A stretch of 64,000 nt of DNA from Fidelibacterota bacterium (lineage in GTDB: Bacteria; Fidelibacterota; Marinisomatia; SCGC-AAA003-L08; D37C17). The translations under genes and the position numbers were made by a program. The notes beneath the pieces are model-generated. The model searched no databases. It was not told the DNA's origin and saw nothing but the letters and a program-made list of their open reading frames with translations. Where the stretch lies: assembly GCA_002717625.1 (NCBI GenBank), contig PBEF01000004.1, positions 4,146 to 68,145 on the forward strand. The letters are read 5' to 3'. Positions within the stretch are counted from its first letter, which is position 1; every line of letters starts with the position of its first letter. Below, one piece after another: positions 19,413 through 26,445 of this stretch.

Positions 19413-19439
19413 AAAAAAGCCTCTATAAAAGAGGCTTTT
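19413..19439 (-). terminator. GCCTCT-family intrinsic terminator
   Basis: AAAAAAGCCTCT, 5-base loop, AGAGGCTTTT: a T-flanked hairpin in both orientations. On the minus strand it ends the selenoprotein pair (19464-21256). Confidence 0.85.
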
Positions 19440-19463
19440 AAAATAAAATATAATATTAAAAAT

Positions 19464-20579
19464 TCATTCAATCCCTAAAATATAATTAACCATAGCAACA
19501 ACATCAACAACATTAACTATACCATCAGCATTAATATCTGCATATGTATACTGGCATGTCCCATCATCTACATTAGCTAATTCATCAAAATTAATAGCAT
19601 ATTCATAAGTACATCCAAAATTAATAAATGAAGAATATTGACATGTAGCATTATCTCCATCTCCAAGTAAATCTGCTATAGGGTTGTAATTAAAGGCTAT
19701 AGGATCTGAACAGTTAGCTCCAGACATGCAATGATCTCCCATCCAATAACAGTTCTGACTATTCATACAATCTAATTGATTATCAAAATCCATACATCCA
19801 TCATTTGTTTCCATACAATGATCTCCCATCCACATACATCCAGAGATGGCCATACAATCTAATTGATTAAGAGCATCATCACATAAGTCACAATCATCTC
19901 CATACAAACATAAAGCATCATCATAAACAGCAGTTATATCATAATTACAAGCATTACTATCAGTACATCCATACATAGAATTAATTAGAGAAGGTATATA
20001 AGTATATTGAAAATCATATAAATTAGGCATATCAAATAAATATCTTACAACCATATGATGATCAATAAAAGCATATGCTGAATAAGTTGATCCCGCAAAC
20101 ATATTCCATATATCATGATTAGGATCACAATCTAGGATTAATGGGTTATTACCATAATCACCAAGTTCAGTATATAATTCTGCCCATCCACTACAAGAAT
20201 AAAGGTCTGATTCATTAGAACTATAATCAAGACTAATTAAAAACTCTAAATTTTCATATTCATCTACAACTTCAATAAGTTGATCCATCAAACTGACGTA
20301 ATCATAACAAGCAGGTCACCAAGTTGCATTCATACTAATAAGAGTTATTTTATAATCTCCTCCATTAATATTACCATTGTAGTCAGAAAAAGAAAATGTA
20401 CTTCCTGTTTCATAACTACCTGAGCCATTACATACAGAAAAGAATAAATTCTGATCCTCTATACTCAAAGTATCTCCAGGACTATAAAAAGATCTATTAT
20501 AAGGAACACTCTCAACTGGACAAACTAATTCATCAGGAAATAAAAAAGAGAAAAACAAGAAGAATAAAAGGTATAACAT
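19464..20579 (-). CDS. Selenoprotein: exported thioredoxin-fold protein (WUPAC motif) with Cys-rich repeats and dockerin-like end
   Basis: Read through an in-frame TGA at 20316-20318 (codon 88), the gene encodes 371 residues. Signal peptide about 1-15. A thioredoxin-like domain (about 65-200) holds MNATW-U-PACYDYV, so TGA replaces the first Cys of the WCxxC redox motif (U88, C91). Next come Cys-rich units: GCTDSNACNYD, two copies of an LDCM-x5-C-x-WMGDHCM unit, and GCTYEYAINFDELANVDDGTC, then a single dockerin-like loop ADINADGIVNVVDVV. ATG at 20579 follows the upstream selenoprotein gene by 11 bases, so they form one operon. Read as ordinary stops, the gene would be two fragments, neither with a complete redox motif. 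Confidence 0.85.
20278..20294 (-). promoter_or_regulatory. Candidate bacterial SECIS hairpin (WUPAC gene)
   Basis: Starting 21 bases after the TGA at 20316-20318, AGTT (20294-20291) pairs with AACT (20281-20278), a single T (20290) is bulged, GA pairs with TC, and the apical loop is TGGA. The loop begins 28 bases after the TGA. A bulged U and a G-containing small loop at this distance are features of known bacterial SECIS elements. The stem is short (6 pairs), so the assignment is moderate. Confidence 0.5.
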
Positions 20580-20590
20580 GAGTTAAGAGC

Positions 20591-21256
20591 TTAACTCAAT
20601 ATCATATTAACAAGCTGTATAACATCTAATACATTAATAGTACCATCAAAATTCAAATCTGCTGCAGAATCAGTTTGGTTGCCAAGAATCATATTAACCA
20701 ATAAAATAATATCTTGTATATTAACTACAGAATCTACATTTATATCACCTAATAAAGACTGTTCATAATGCTCTTCTAAGATTCCTCTAATATAATTTTT
20801 CAAAGTATTGTTAACAACATTTGCATTCATACTACCTAAATAGCTTCCATCATAGTCTAAAATGACTACTGATTTATGCTCACCATACGGTGAAAATTGT
20901 TCTCTAATTGGAAGACTTGGGTATGGATCCATTACAAGAGGCAAATCAGAGTTTGCACAAAATGTATCATTAAAACTACTAATATTTGACGTGCCAACAG
21001 CTATAAAAACAACATTTTCATAACCATCTTCACTCCTTAATTCTTCTTGAAAATTGGACAACTGCCCAAATGCACTTGTTCATCCCGCTCATCCTTGAGA
21101 AGAAAAAAAATGAATCGTTATATAATCTAAATACTGAGGAAGCCAAACATCTAGACCATAAGTAGGCGATGTTGTATTGTAATCTTGAGAAGAGTACATA
21201 TAATCATCACAAATACCAATTGATAAAACAAACAATATAATTAAGATTTTCTTCAT
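20591..21256 (-). CDS. Selenoprotein: exported thioredoxin-like protein with UxxU motif and dockerin-like tail
   Basis: Frame from ATG 21256 to TAA at 20591 with two TGA codons at 21089-21091 and 21080-21082 (codons 56 and 59), giving 221 residues. Signal peptide about 1-16 (MKKILIILFVLSIGIC). The domain reads YITIHFFSSQG-U-A-G-U-TSAFG followed by GYENVVFIAVGTSN, a thioredoxin beta-alpha-beta pattern in which both CxxC positions are TGA. From memory the layout resembles the SelP N-terminal domain and the diselenide UxxU motif of SelL. It ends with two dockerin-like loops (GDINVDSVVNIQDII, ADLNFDGTINVLDVI). First gene of the selenoprotein pair; the downstream gene starts 11 bases after its stop. 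Confidence 0.85.
21058..21079 (-). promoter_or_regulatory. Candidate bacterial SECIS hairpin (UxxU gene)
   Basis: ACAAGTGC (21079-21072) pairs with GCAGTTGT (21065-21058) with one G/G mismatch, enclosing the loop ATTTGG. The loop begins 17 bases after the first TGA (21089-21091) and 8 bases after the second. One element could serve both codons or only the first. It has GG in the apical loop, as in bacterial SECIS elements. Confidence 0.5.
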
Positions 21257-21329: not shown

Positions 21330-21752
21330 TTAATTTTCTTTCAACATTTTTTCTACCTCTAAAACATGTAATTCTTCTTGTCCTATCATAGTTCTAGCAT
21401 ATTCTTCTAAATAAACAGATTTACCATCAATCAAAGATAATAAATCATAATAGACCTGTATAGCTTTTTTCTCATGGTCTAAAGTCTCTTTTAAAATGTC
21501 CTGAATATTATGCTTATAGCTCTCTTTTATATTATCAATTCCTAAAGGAGGATGACCACCTAAACCAGTAATGTATTCACCTGCTAAATTTGCATGAGCT
21601 AATGATTCAGAAGCCTGAGATTTAAAAAAATCAATAAGAGGCAATCTATTATAACCAAATATCATTAAAGAGTAATGTGTATATCTAATAACTCCTGAAA
21701 GCTCCAAAGTAAAAATTTCACTTAATTTTTTTACAATCTTTTTTTTATCCAT
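21330..21752 (-). CDS. Ferritin-like / bacterioferritin-type diiron protein
   Basis: 140 residues, all helical. Glutamate and histidine residues are placed as in a four-helix ferritin-like fold: LELSGVIRYTHY (helix A), SQASESLAHANLAGEY (helix B), LKETLDHEKKAI (helix C) and MIGQEELHVLEVEKML (helix D with E-x-x-H). Such proteins store iron or carry out diiron oxidation; subunits of bacterioferritin type are slightly longer (about 155). It is a single gene on the minus strand with AAAGTAAATCTCC just upstream (GGAGAT in sense) as ribosome binding site. Confidence 0.72.
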   Translation of the reverse strand: MDKKKIVKKLSEIFTLELSGVIRYTHYSLMIFGYNRLPLIDFFKSQASESLAHANLAGEYITGLGGHPPLGIDNIKESYKHNIQDILKETLDHEKKAIQVYYDLLSLIDGKSVYLEEYARTMIGQEELHVLEVEKMLKEN

Positions 21753-21802
21753 AAAGTAAATCTCCTAAATATTAACATAAGTTAAATTACAAATAACAAA
21801 AT

Positions 21803-21837
21803 AAAAAAGCCTCTATAAAAGAGGCTTTTTTATTTTT
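21803..21837 (-). terminator. GCCTCT-family intrinsic terminator
   Basis: AAAAAAGCCTCT, loop ATAAA, AGAGGCTTTTT. On the minus strand it follows the Cys-rich repeat gene (21901-23157) and precedes the ferritin-like gene. The hairpin core is identical to that at 19413. Confidence 0.85.
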
Positions 21838-23304: not shown

Positions 23305-24087
23305 CTATTCTCCAAGTATAAAGCCTACAAGACCTACAATATCAACAACATTAACGATACTATCTTCATTGTAATCAAATAAGCATATATCATCTGAAAA
23401 TGATGGATCTGATAATATAAAGTTAACAGTAGAAACAACATCAACCACATTAATTATTCCATCATCATTGGTATCTCCAGGAATTCCAAAGCATTGATCA
23501 GCATCAGGATTATCTATTCCTACCTGATAACGAATTGAAACATTTCCACCTGAACCATTAGCATAATAATTATAGGCCCAAAACTTAACAATATCCTGAC
23601 CGTTAGCAGCTTTAACAAACATAACATAATTAGTAGGATTAAGAACATAGGTTTCATCAAACCATCCCCATGAATTAAGAGCAGGGTTTTTAATGCCTTC
23701 AACAAAAGTATGAGTAGTAAGATCATAAAAATCATTATGGATACCATCTTCTAGCCAATTAACACCACTACCATAATCAGGCACTTCATTTAATTCTGTC
23801 CAATGATCAATCCATGTATAAGCTCCTGAATCTAAAGTCCCTACAGAATCAACAATGGCACCTCCATATCCGGGACCAGAAAGCCCACTATTAGTTTTAA
23901 TATGCTTCCTCTGAAAAGCTAAATCCCACTCAAGAGAACTTTCAGGATAATCAACTAAAACTACGCTATGAGTTGAGAATGAATAATAAACCCAATCTGA
24001 ATAACTAGTGGCTGGTATTGTTACAAAATATTCTTCTTGAGCATACAGTACACAACATAATAACATAATTATACTATTTTTCATCAT
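23305..24087 (-). CDS. hmuY: HmuY-like heme-binding protein with dockerin-like tail
   Basis: 260 residues with signal peptide (about 1-16, ending LYAQ). The body matches the HmuY family: YYSFSTHSVV, SLEWDLAFQRKHIKTNSG, GPGYGGA and NGQDIVKFWAYNYY. HmuY of Porphyromonas is a surface or secreted hemophore that passes heme to the receptor HmuR. Here the family domain (about 20-195) is joined to two dockerin-like loops (PGDTNDDGIINVVDVV and DYNEDSIVNVVDIV), which is not part of classical HmuY. The gene lies 17 bases downstream of the TonB-dependent receptor and is part of the same heme operon. Confidence 0.82.
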   Translation of the reverse strand: MMKNSIIMLLCCVLYAQEEYFVTIPATSYSDWVYYSFSTHSVVLVDYPESSLEWDLAFQRKHIKTNSGLSGPGYGGAIVDSVGTLDSGAYTWIDHWTELNEVPDYGSGVNWLEDGIHNDFYDLTTHTFVEGIKNPALNSWGWFDETYVLNPTNYVMFVKAANGQDIVKFWAYNYYANGSGGNVSIRYQVGIDNPDADQCFGIPGDTNDDGIINVVDVVSTVNFILSDPSFSDDICLFDYNEDSIVNVVDIVGLVGFILGE

Positions 24088-24104
24088 AATATTCCCACTC
24101 CTAT

Positions 24105-26420
24105 TTACTTGAATTTTAAATCAATTCCAACTACAAATCTTCCACCAGGATCATATGCCGATAAAAGATCTTTTTCATAACTATCACTTAAAAATCTCCT
24201 ATCATCTTTATAGTGGAATAAGTTTTTATAACCAAATTTTAAACCTACATAATCATTAATTTTAATTTTTGCAAGCGCATCTGCCATAATATAATCTTCC
24301 AACGTTATAATATCATCACCATCATAAATAATCTTATCTCCTGAATATTTCATGTTAACAGATATATTAAATTTATTTTTTATAACTTTATATGAATAAT
24401 TCAAAGCTAAAGAATGTTCAGATATAAGCTCTAATGCCTCTTTATTATCAGACTCTGGATGAGTATAATTATACACAAACTTTATATTATTTTTATCGTT
24501 AAGAAGACTTTCATAATGACAATTGATACCATAAAAAATGACTGAACTAAAATTACTATAAAGTAAAATATTATTATCAAATTCATCAACAGTAGACTTA
24601 ACGCCTATCAAATTCTTTATATCATTATAAAATAATTCAAATGAATAATTTTTATCTAAATCTTTTTTATCAAAAGAAATAGAGAAAAAATCATTAGTAG
24701 TTGGTTCTAAATCAGGGTTGCCAATCACAGGAGGGCTATGACCTTGAAAATTATAATACAATTCTTTAATAGCGGGAGTTCTAAATCCCTTGCTATAATT
24801 AAACCTTACATCATGTAGGCGAGTTGAATTATTAGTAAACAAATAGGCCATTGAATAAACCAGATTATCTGTATAGTTTTCAGATTTAACCTTCCTAATA
24901 GAAACAGAAAATATATTATCATTATCTAAACTTATTTGATTACCTATAAAAAATGCCTTTTTACTAAATTGCTTAATTCCATTTTGACTATTAAATATAG
25001 ACTCAACTAAACAATCATCTATATCATCTCCACACTCACCATCATTATTCACATCTCCCAAATCATACTTATATATATTAAAAGATGCATATTCATCATC
25101 ATTTTTTTCAAAACCAAAAGTTAAATTATGGGCATTAAACTGAAAGTCATATTGAACTAAAAGGCTTTCATTTGTATTAGTCGCATTTAAAAATTCAGCC
25201 TCAATTAAATTATCTGGATTATTACAGTCAGTTAAAGAACAAGACTCATATGAATAATTGAAAAAATGACTGTTTTTTCTATACTCCTCAAAATTATAAA
25301 AAACTTTGAATGTTGACTCTTCATTCTTATTAAGAAACTTGAAACCATACCTATTATCTTTAAATCTAGGAGAGTTATTTTTATAAGTTTTATAATAAGA
25401 GAATGGATTCTGACAACCCATTTGACAAAGATGACTTTCATATTGATATATTTCATTCGAATAATCTTTAACATTTAGCTCAACAGAGGTATTTTCTGAA
25501 AAATTATAGGTAAAACCATGCTTAACTGATATAGTCTTATACGCTTCTAATGTTTTAATCAAAGGACCCATAACATTATTCTCAAGTGGAGTTAAATCAT
25601 AGCCATCAGATTCTTTTTTATCTATATTAATATTATAATGTATATTTTTATAGTTAAGTCCAAATGCTAATGACTGTGAAATCACCATTGGGTCTTCATT
25701 TAAATAGGATATATCTAGCCAATAAGGATTCTGCTTTTTCTTTGTTATAATATTTACAACTCCGCCTATTGCACTTGATCCATACAAACTAGACATTCCT
25801 CCTTCTACAATTTCAATTTTATCTACATCTGATAAATTCAACATATTAAAATCTAAATTGCCTGCAAACTCACCAGAAACCCTTGCTCCATCTATAAGGA
25901 ATAAAATATATTTATTATCTAAACCCTGAATTTTGACTCTATTATTACTAGTCCCTGCATGACTTGAGACTACATTTTGAACATTGGGTAATTTCATTTC
26001 TAAAATATCTTTAACATTAGTATAGGTTGTATTTGATATATCATTAGAATTAATAACATGAGTTAAAACGGGAGTATCTTTAACATAAGCTTCTTTTCTT
26101 AATCCTGTAACTAATATACGATCTAACTCTACAGGAGTTTCAAAAAGTATTATTTCATATAACTCATCAGAAGAATAATCAATGGGCGTAATACTATCTT
26201 CATATCCTATATGAGAAACTTTAACTGAAAATTCTTTTTCTAAGATAGAATCAATAATGAAATAACCATCTTCATCTGTTAAGGTAGAAGAATTTTTCAT
26301 ATCAACAATTTGAACGTTAGCATTCTTAATAGGATTGTCAGAAACATCTACAACCTGACCTTTAAATGGACCTATTGCGCATAATGCTGATAAAAATAAT
26401 AATTTAAGTATATAATTCAT
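24105..26420 (-). CDS. hmuR: TonB-dependent heme receptor (HmuR-like)
   Basis: About 771 residues from ATG 26420 (a TTG seven codons upstream is less likely because the signal peptide MNYILKLLFLSALCAIG starts here). A CarboxypepD-regulatory-like domain (about 20-95) precedes the plug with VKIQGLDNKYILFLIDG and EIVEGGMSSLYGSSAIGGVV, then a 22-strand-type barrel with NPDLEPTTNDFFS and a terminal aromatic-rich strand. It probably imports heme delivered by the adjacent HmuY-like protein. An acidic loop DLGDVNNDGECGDDIDD (about residue 450) is an extra calcium-loop-like insertion in an extracellular position. A half copy of the TTTCGACTA operator lies just before the start. Confidence 0.88.
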   Translation of the reverse strand: MNYILKLLFLSALCAIGPFKGQVVDVSDNPIKNANVQIVDMKNSSTLTDEDGYFIIDSILEKEFSVKVSHIGYEDSITPIDYSSDELYEIILFETPVELDRILVTGLRKEAYVKDTPVLTHVINSNDISNTTYTNVKDILEMKLPNVQNVVSSHAGTSNNRVKIQGLDNKYILFLIDGARVSGEFAGNLDFNMLNLSDVDKIEIVEGGMSSLYGSSAIGGVVNIITKKKQNPYWLDISYLNEDPMVISQSLAFGLNYKNIHYNINIDKKESDGYDLTPLENNVMGPLIKTLEAYKTISVKHGFTYNFSENTSVELNVKDYSNEIYQYESHLCQMGCQNPFSYYKTYKNNSPRFKDNRYGFKFLNKNEESTFKVFYNFEEYRKNSHFFNYSYESCSLTDCNNPDNLIEAEFLNATNTNESLLVQYDFQFNAHNLTFGFEKNDDEYASFNIYKYDLGDVNNDGECGDDIDDCLVESIFNSQNGIKQFSKKAFFIGNQISLDNDNIFSVSIRKVKSENYTDNLVYSMAYLFTNNSTRLHDVRFNYSKGFRTPAIKELYYNFQGHSPPVIGNPDLEPTTNDFFSISFDKKDLDKNYSFELFYNDIKNLIGVKSTVDEFDNNILLYSNFSSVIFYGINCHYESLLNDKNNIKFVYNYTHPESDNKEALELISEHSLALNYSYKVIKNKFNISVNMKYSGDKIIYDGDDIITLEDYIMADALAKIKINDYVGLKFGYKNLFHYKDDRRFLSDSYEKDLLSAYDPGGRFVVGIDLKFK

Positions 26421-26445
26421 AGCGTTAATATAATATACCAACTAG

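Follow-up and report, generated by a model that had tools for sequence, protein, structure and literature searches.

The minus strand of the window, a 64,000-bp stretch of a Fidelibacterota bacterium genome (contig PBEF01000004.1, assembly GCA_002717625.1), carries two adjacent genes, designated B and A, whose internal, stop-like UGA codons are predicted with good support to be read as selenocysteine (Sec). Together, the two genes probably constitute (at a probability of about 0.72) a two-gene, three-selenocysteine unit encoding an exported thiol/selenol oxidoreductase pair, whose members exchange electrons or share a substrate. This conserved operon, with its two probably exported selenoproteins and three Sec residues, belongs to an uncultured marine phylum, Neomarinimicrobiota (the Marinimicrobia of the original prediction), for which Table 1 of a 2016 survey gives three SAR406 single-cell genomes with SelD and no other selenium genes (PMC5029168). 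UxxC and UxxU thioredoxin-fold selenoproteins are a known kind of protein; the family and the pairing appear to be new.

Gene A (19464..20579; on the minus strand, like the parts of both genes and the hairpins given below) encodes a predicted selenoprotein of 372 residues with a WUPAC motif. Its frame opens with an ATG at 20579 and runs through 87 codons to a single in-frame TGA (20318-20316, codon 88), which is located in the motif TWUPACYDYV and is followed by 283 sense codons and a stop codon that is itself a TGA (19466-19464); the in-frame TGA and the 283-codon continuation are as the original prediction had described them. Gene B (20591..21256), directly upstream, encodes a predicted selenoprotein of 221 residues with a UAGU site. 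Based on sequence and alignment, its two TGA codons (codon 56, 21089..21091; codon 59, 21080..21082) lie within GUAGUT, in a TUGYCR-like redoxin domain, and the protein ends with a type I dockerin domain (residues 169-220; 20597..20752). An ordinary list of open reading frames breaks A into pieces of 87 and 275 residues and cuts B to 156, and the pair illustrates how standard gene calling fragments or shortens selenoprotein genes.

Genes related to A were found in 22 of the 23 genomes of the taxonomic family, among them 12 orthologues (that of the window's own genome and 11 with 56-68% identity), the others having mostly 26-42% identity. When 245 genomes of the phylum were considered, 14 possessed an A orthologue at E <= 2.0e-60, two of them outside the family (G141, 70%; G177, 52%), and, within the first 200 residues, the 13 other orthologues are 52-70% identical to the window's A protein. 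All 14 orthologues, each from a different genome of the phylum, contain exactly one TGA in the matched stretch, at the aligned codon, with the frame reading on behind it. The weaker matches of the A family were fetched as loci in 18 cases, and six of these 18 paralogues have a Cys at the Sec88 site; the proposal that the TGA stands where a WCxxC motif has its first Cys, and that homologues with Cys at position 88 could be aligned, is in this way supported. A tree built from 32 family rows (26 with Sec and 6 with Cys) has some long branches and places the 14 orthologues in one group with a support of 100/100. A search of genome contigs with a back-translated query provided seven loci, which were mainly Cys relatives because the query had been back-translated with Cys; two loci from this search (L084 and L085) stop at a TGA at the site, and the alignments used for structure prediction did not include them.

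Both genes display a putative bacterial SECIS (bSECIS) hairpin, identified by alignment, covariation and folding. That of gene A (20282..20303) has a spacing of 22 bases from the UGA and a 5+4 stem, with its core stem at 20286-20298 and a GUU loop at 20291-20293, while that of gene B (21054..21069), with an AGUU loop, lies 16 bases after the second UGA. The hairpin of A falls within 49 bases counted from the UGA, which align without gaps. Among the orthologues, 97.5% of the same-residue pairs at codons 92-99 share the same codon, versus 57% outside codons 89-100, and these eight codons rank at the top of 180 eight-codon windows of A for silent-site conservation. Ser96 is encoded by AGT in all 14 orthologues, and Leu97, where present, by TTG (13/13). 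The orthologues by themselves show no covariation at the A hairpin: no pair changed on both sides, and all 500 shuffles scored as high (13 of the 14 were counted, as L079 joined the orthologue alignment later). In 20 family members (18 distinct), all 90 cells are paired and three of the five pairs display compensatory changes; the covariation score was matched by none of 500 shuffles and the count of doubly changed pairs by 17 of 500, a support that comes from six of the 12 Sec paralogues, added for having the hairpin in register, while L034, L035, L036, L043, L044 and L047, whose register differs, were left out of the count. For gene B, all 108 cells are paired across 21 sequences (18 distinct), 12 of the cells are compensatory, and three of the six pairs differ on both sides; no shuffle out of 500 attained the paired percentage or the covariation score, and 36 attained as many doubly changed pairs. 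Pairing persists in two B genes in which the residues on either side of the loop are replaced (L061, G to V and S to H; L078, G to T and S to C).

The folding energy of the A hairpin is -6.3 kcal/mol, with a z-score of -2.20 for the hairpin alone and of -0.48 for a 42-base stretch, and reaches -7.2 kcal/mol in a 55-base stretch. These values lie above the free energy of -7.5 kcal/mol or lower that is required by a published bSECIS search model, as quoted in PMC13188914; the limit belongs to a search model and is not a biological one. The fold expected behind the TGA of gene A is a conserved hairpin that covaries once paralogues are included, but is of modest energy and shows no covariation among orthologues.

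The genome carrying the window (1.49 Mb in 23 contigs, 89.7% complete) encodes the machinery for Sec insertion: a tRNA-Sec above cut-off (65.8 bits; ARAGORN anticodon tca), selB (330 bits) adjoined by selA (506.6 bits), and selD (376 bits). The selD gene (L016, G000:C21:4078-5004) contains one in-frame TGA, and SelD is for this reason probably a selenoprotein itself. The full selenium set found here differs from the SelD-only SAR406 genomes in the table of the 2016 survey (PMC5029168), for which incompleteness of the latter is a possible cause.

Since SelB-type decoding is available and a constrained hairpin follows the UGA of each gene, the internal UGA codons are predicted to encode Sec and the final UGA of gene A to act as a stop. 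Were the TGA at codon 88 an ordinary stop, or the product of a sequencing error or frameshift, the downstream part would be a separate gene; TGA is indeed a true stop elsewhere, including at the end of gene A, but this reading is very improbable in view of the same TGA being present in 14 genomes with the protein conserved on both sides, of the complete Sec machinery, of the RNA-level constraint behind the codon and of the existence of Cys relatives. Even less credible is a changed code in which UGA would specify an amino acid such as Trp or Gly. Such a code would account for in-frame read-through, yet TGA ends eight of the 44 non-overlapping ORFs of at least 120 aa in the window, gene A among them, which rejects a globally changed code and implies that Sec decoding must be local; moreover, paralogues use Cys as the alternative residue, and a tRNA-Sec is present.

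Protein A is predicted to be composed of a Trx/TlpA-like domain and a Cys-rich domain of its own. The Trx/AhpC-TSA-like domain (residues 58-200; 19980..20408) was delimited from profile matches and alignments. Its similarity to known profiles is low: A scored 14.9-16.4 bits against Pfam AhpC-TSA (cut-off 26), no profile of the Trx/TlpA/ResA family matched above its curated cut-off, and the full protein had no NCBIfam match at E <= 1. The domain is better recognised in the relatives of A (best values among 24: PF00085, 1.8e-8; PF00578, 5.8e-8; ResA, 1.2e-7). Solved structures searched by sequence gave weak matches, the best being thioredoxin 4fyu (E 0.0024), and structure predictions were of low confidence (pLDDT 41.4 for A with five Cys relatives, 33.6 for a Cys relative together with A and four more). 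Cys50 is invariant across the 24-member family alignment, and Cys129 almost so. The cis-proline that precedes the third strand in thioredoxin, TlpA and ResA is a Ser in 13 of the 14 A orthologues (one is masked) versus a Pro in 17 of the 18 paralogues (the 18th was not read); the pattern used for this site failed or matched elsewhere in seven of the 32 rows, of which six were read by eye and L046 was left unread.

The Cys-rich domain (residues 205-343; 19551..19967), characterized by sequence search and alignment, contains two CxWMGDHCM units, and 17 Cys/Sec columns are invariant in the 11 full-length orthologues. A 114-residue piece of it was searched in 23 genomes and matched in one place in each of nine A-carrying genomes, with 51-77% identity in the eight besides its own, and with one further weak match in G004. 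A generic repeat was rejected on this basis. The predicted domain is specific to gene A, so that the Cys-rich repeats of the original prediction are Cys-rich as stated and are better described as a domain accompanying A alone; three orthologues (L028-L030) have no WMGDHCM domain. The dockerin-like loop noted earlier, at the end of A (residues 346-368; 19476..19544), is one half of a type I repeat that matches PF00404 (E 0.0086), at 16.7 bits below the gathering score of 22.9, and A lacks the two Ca-binding dockerin repeats over this score in Pfam. Gene B has a complete dockerin with both loops (E 5e-7, 30.3 bits, gathering score 22.9). For gene B, the sequence search against solved structures gave no meaningful match, and a single one of 23 B-family members matches PF04592, at 0.037.

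Gene B ends 11 bases (20580-20590) before gene A on the same strand, and the two are probably co-transcribed, in agreement with the spacing initially reported. We found B directly upstream of A, on the same strand and with gaps of 0-18 bases, for all 12 family orthologues, and also for both orthologues outside the family (G141 and G177), so that the co-occurrence suggested earlier as a check extends to 14 of 14 A orthologues following a UxxU gene. A wider conserved operon around the pair was not found; a ferritin-like gene and typA are nearby in some genomes only. Gene A is followed by a terminator-like hairpin (GCCTCT/AGAGGC and a T tract; 19413..19441), read from the sequence and not listed by the hairpin scan, while the scan identified a near-identical one upstream of the ferritin-like gene (21798..21836). 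The two hairpins bracket the ferritin-like gene (21330-21752), B and A; the unit would thus end at 19413-19441, and the ferritin-like gene may share its transcript here. A second B-family UxxU gene (L069, G000:C4:75583-76008) is located on the same contig outside the window, and no A orthologue was found beside it.

Both A and B are likely exported from the cytoplasm, as was originally proposed, based on their signal-like N-termini, their dockerin-type ends, the type IX tails on relatives, and the presence of SprA and DsbD. The N-terminus of A (20532..20579) is hydrophobic and signal-peptide-like in the translation and its orthologues, and the signal peptides of both proteins were judged by eye. 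SprA was found in 21 of the 23 family genomes, including that of the window, and type IX sorting tails in all 23, with 16 matches in the own genome. Cohesin (PF00963) exceeded its cut-off in 19 of 23, with one match (30.5 bits) in the own genome; these matches allow docking and name no partner. DsbD_TM was present in 22 of 23, the own genome included, where a TlpA/ResA-like gene comes next to and after that of a DsbD-like protein of 626 residues. The two routes of export, and a source of electrons in the periplasm, would therefore exist in these genomes. The type IX C-terminal sorting domain has no match on the A or B protein of the window, and for A itself we infer export out of the cytoplasm only. 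Sorting domains above the cut-off of 23 bits occur on Sec-containing paralogues of A (L036, 43.5 bits; L038, 34.3 bits) and on the Sec-containing B-family member L065 (26.7 bits); with their predicted Sec, these three are probable cell-surface selenoproteins.

At a UxxC site the selenolate attacks and a selenenylsulfide closes; the bond closed at a UxxU site would be a low-potential diselenide. In the proposed mechanism, both proteins would be thiol/selenol oxidoreductases at work outside the cytoplasm. Protein A would be a TlpA/thioredoxin-like enzyme in which Sec88 attacks and Cys91 resolves in a selenenylsulfide cycle, and B a redoxin with a diselenide-type site; the two would swap electrons or have a common substrate, with DsbD as the source of reducing power in the periplasm. 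The roles of B as electron donor and of A as its partner, put forward in the original prediction, are hypothetical. The Cys-rich domain and the dockerin segment would most likely keep A in an extracytoplasmic assembly or on a client. Should they function beyond the cytoplasm, above all at the cell surface, selenium redox chemistry would need an electron supply in that place. More speculative, and in our estimate rather unlikely, is a surface-displayed selenium redox relay, in which the UxxU and UxxC proteins would be carried across or to the outer membrane and pass electrons among three Sec residues outside the cell, delivery being of type IX in some relatives and by dockerin-cohesin here, with the Cys/Met/His-rich domain of A serving as a client or metal site.

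That A and B act together is suggested by their adjacency, which is not a proof of interaction. They may instead be separate exported selenoproteins that share a promoter, each having its own clients and exchanging no electrons, a less favoured reading that nevertheless deserves serious consideration: B-type UxxU genes do occur without an A orthologue (L069 in the own genome, and in G005, G007, G008 and G013), whereas each of the 14 A orthologues has B directly upstream, though the other neighbours differ. It is also conceivable, and quite unlikely, that A is a metal- or selenium-handling protein and not mainly a disulfide reductase. The Ser at the cis-proline position would then let the Sec/Cys pair bind a metal, which the Cys/Met/His units of the CxWMGDHCM type would bind as well; the cis-proline of the thioredoxin fold is described as a likely element of the site where substrate binds, and as a residue that may keep CxxC from binding metal (PMC2757866). 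The replacement of this residue throughout the readable orthologues and the 17 invariant Cys/Sec columns agree with such a role, but no metal-binding family matches A, the orthologues L028-L030 do without the WMGDHCM domain, and invariant Cys residues in an exported domain may be mere structural disulfides. An exported oxidoreductase pair is the reading we prefer.

The closest known proteins are the Prx-like and Trx-like UxxC/UxxU selenoproteins (Prx-like thiol:disulfide oxidoreductase; GOS Prx-like 2, Prx-like 3 and Trx-like 1), which have a Trx fold with, as predicted for A, Sec for the first Cys, and UxxU in some (PMC2398784, PMC13188914, PMC9312934); A differs from them by its own Cys-rich domain and the Ser at the cis-proline site. 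The GOS study describes UxxU in Prx-like 2 and, for other families, a few selenoprotein genes that are neighbours (PMC2398784); Prx-like 2 is characterised as UxxC/UxxU with low similarity to SelP_N (pfam04592). Some GOS members, compared by description only, may be of the same family as A or B. Reviews from 2022 and 2026 include UxxC/UxxU Prx-like proteins (PMC9312934, PMC13188914); the term 'dockerin' is absent from both and 'Marinimicrobi' from the 2026 one, and none of the terms looked for occur in deep-Sep (PMC12013277). The open-licence literature provided no report of a selenoprotein combining thioredoxin and dockerin, nor of a dockerin in Marinimicrobia, which is weak evidence of novelty, and one paper that names both selenoproteins and Marinimicrobia does so incidentally.

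Among curated models, NCBIfam NF053656 (redoxin_TUGYCR) matches all 23 members of the B alignment (best 1.8e-30), but the B of the window, at 67.4 bits, stays under the cut-off of 100 and has UxxU. ResA/TlpA/DsbE share the WCxxC-type site and give weak matches with some members of the A family (best ResA 1.2e-7, TlpA 2.4e-5), whereas the A of the window has none at E <= 0.01 and is distinguished by Ser in place of the cis-Pro, Sec and an extra domain. The C-terminal part of the Omp28-related selenoprotein model NF045500, an accession listed for GOS_C in a table of PMC13188914, is similar to B in its dockerin segment (19.6 bits) and to a portion of the paralogue L083 (73.3 bits), so that a tail of this type is already represented in a selenoprotein model; the likeness is confined to the tail region and not the catalytic domain, and lies far under the cut-off of 200.

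Elsewhere in the window (23305-26441), an HmuY-like protein with a dockerin-like end is encoded beside a gene resembling a TonB-dependent receptor by sequence. The A-B pair of L079 (G141:C11) comes from a genome outside the window's family, yet it nests within that family, among genus g3, indicating either a recent transfer or a misplaced contig. Predicted Trx-fold selenoproteins also occur in tandem arrays, with four A-family genes in a row at G001:C44:4027-8442 and at G003:C13:17296-22232, three of the four in each array having an internal TGA.
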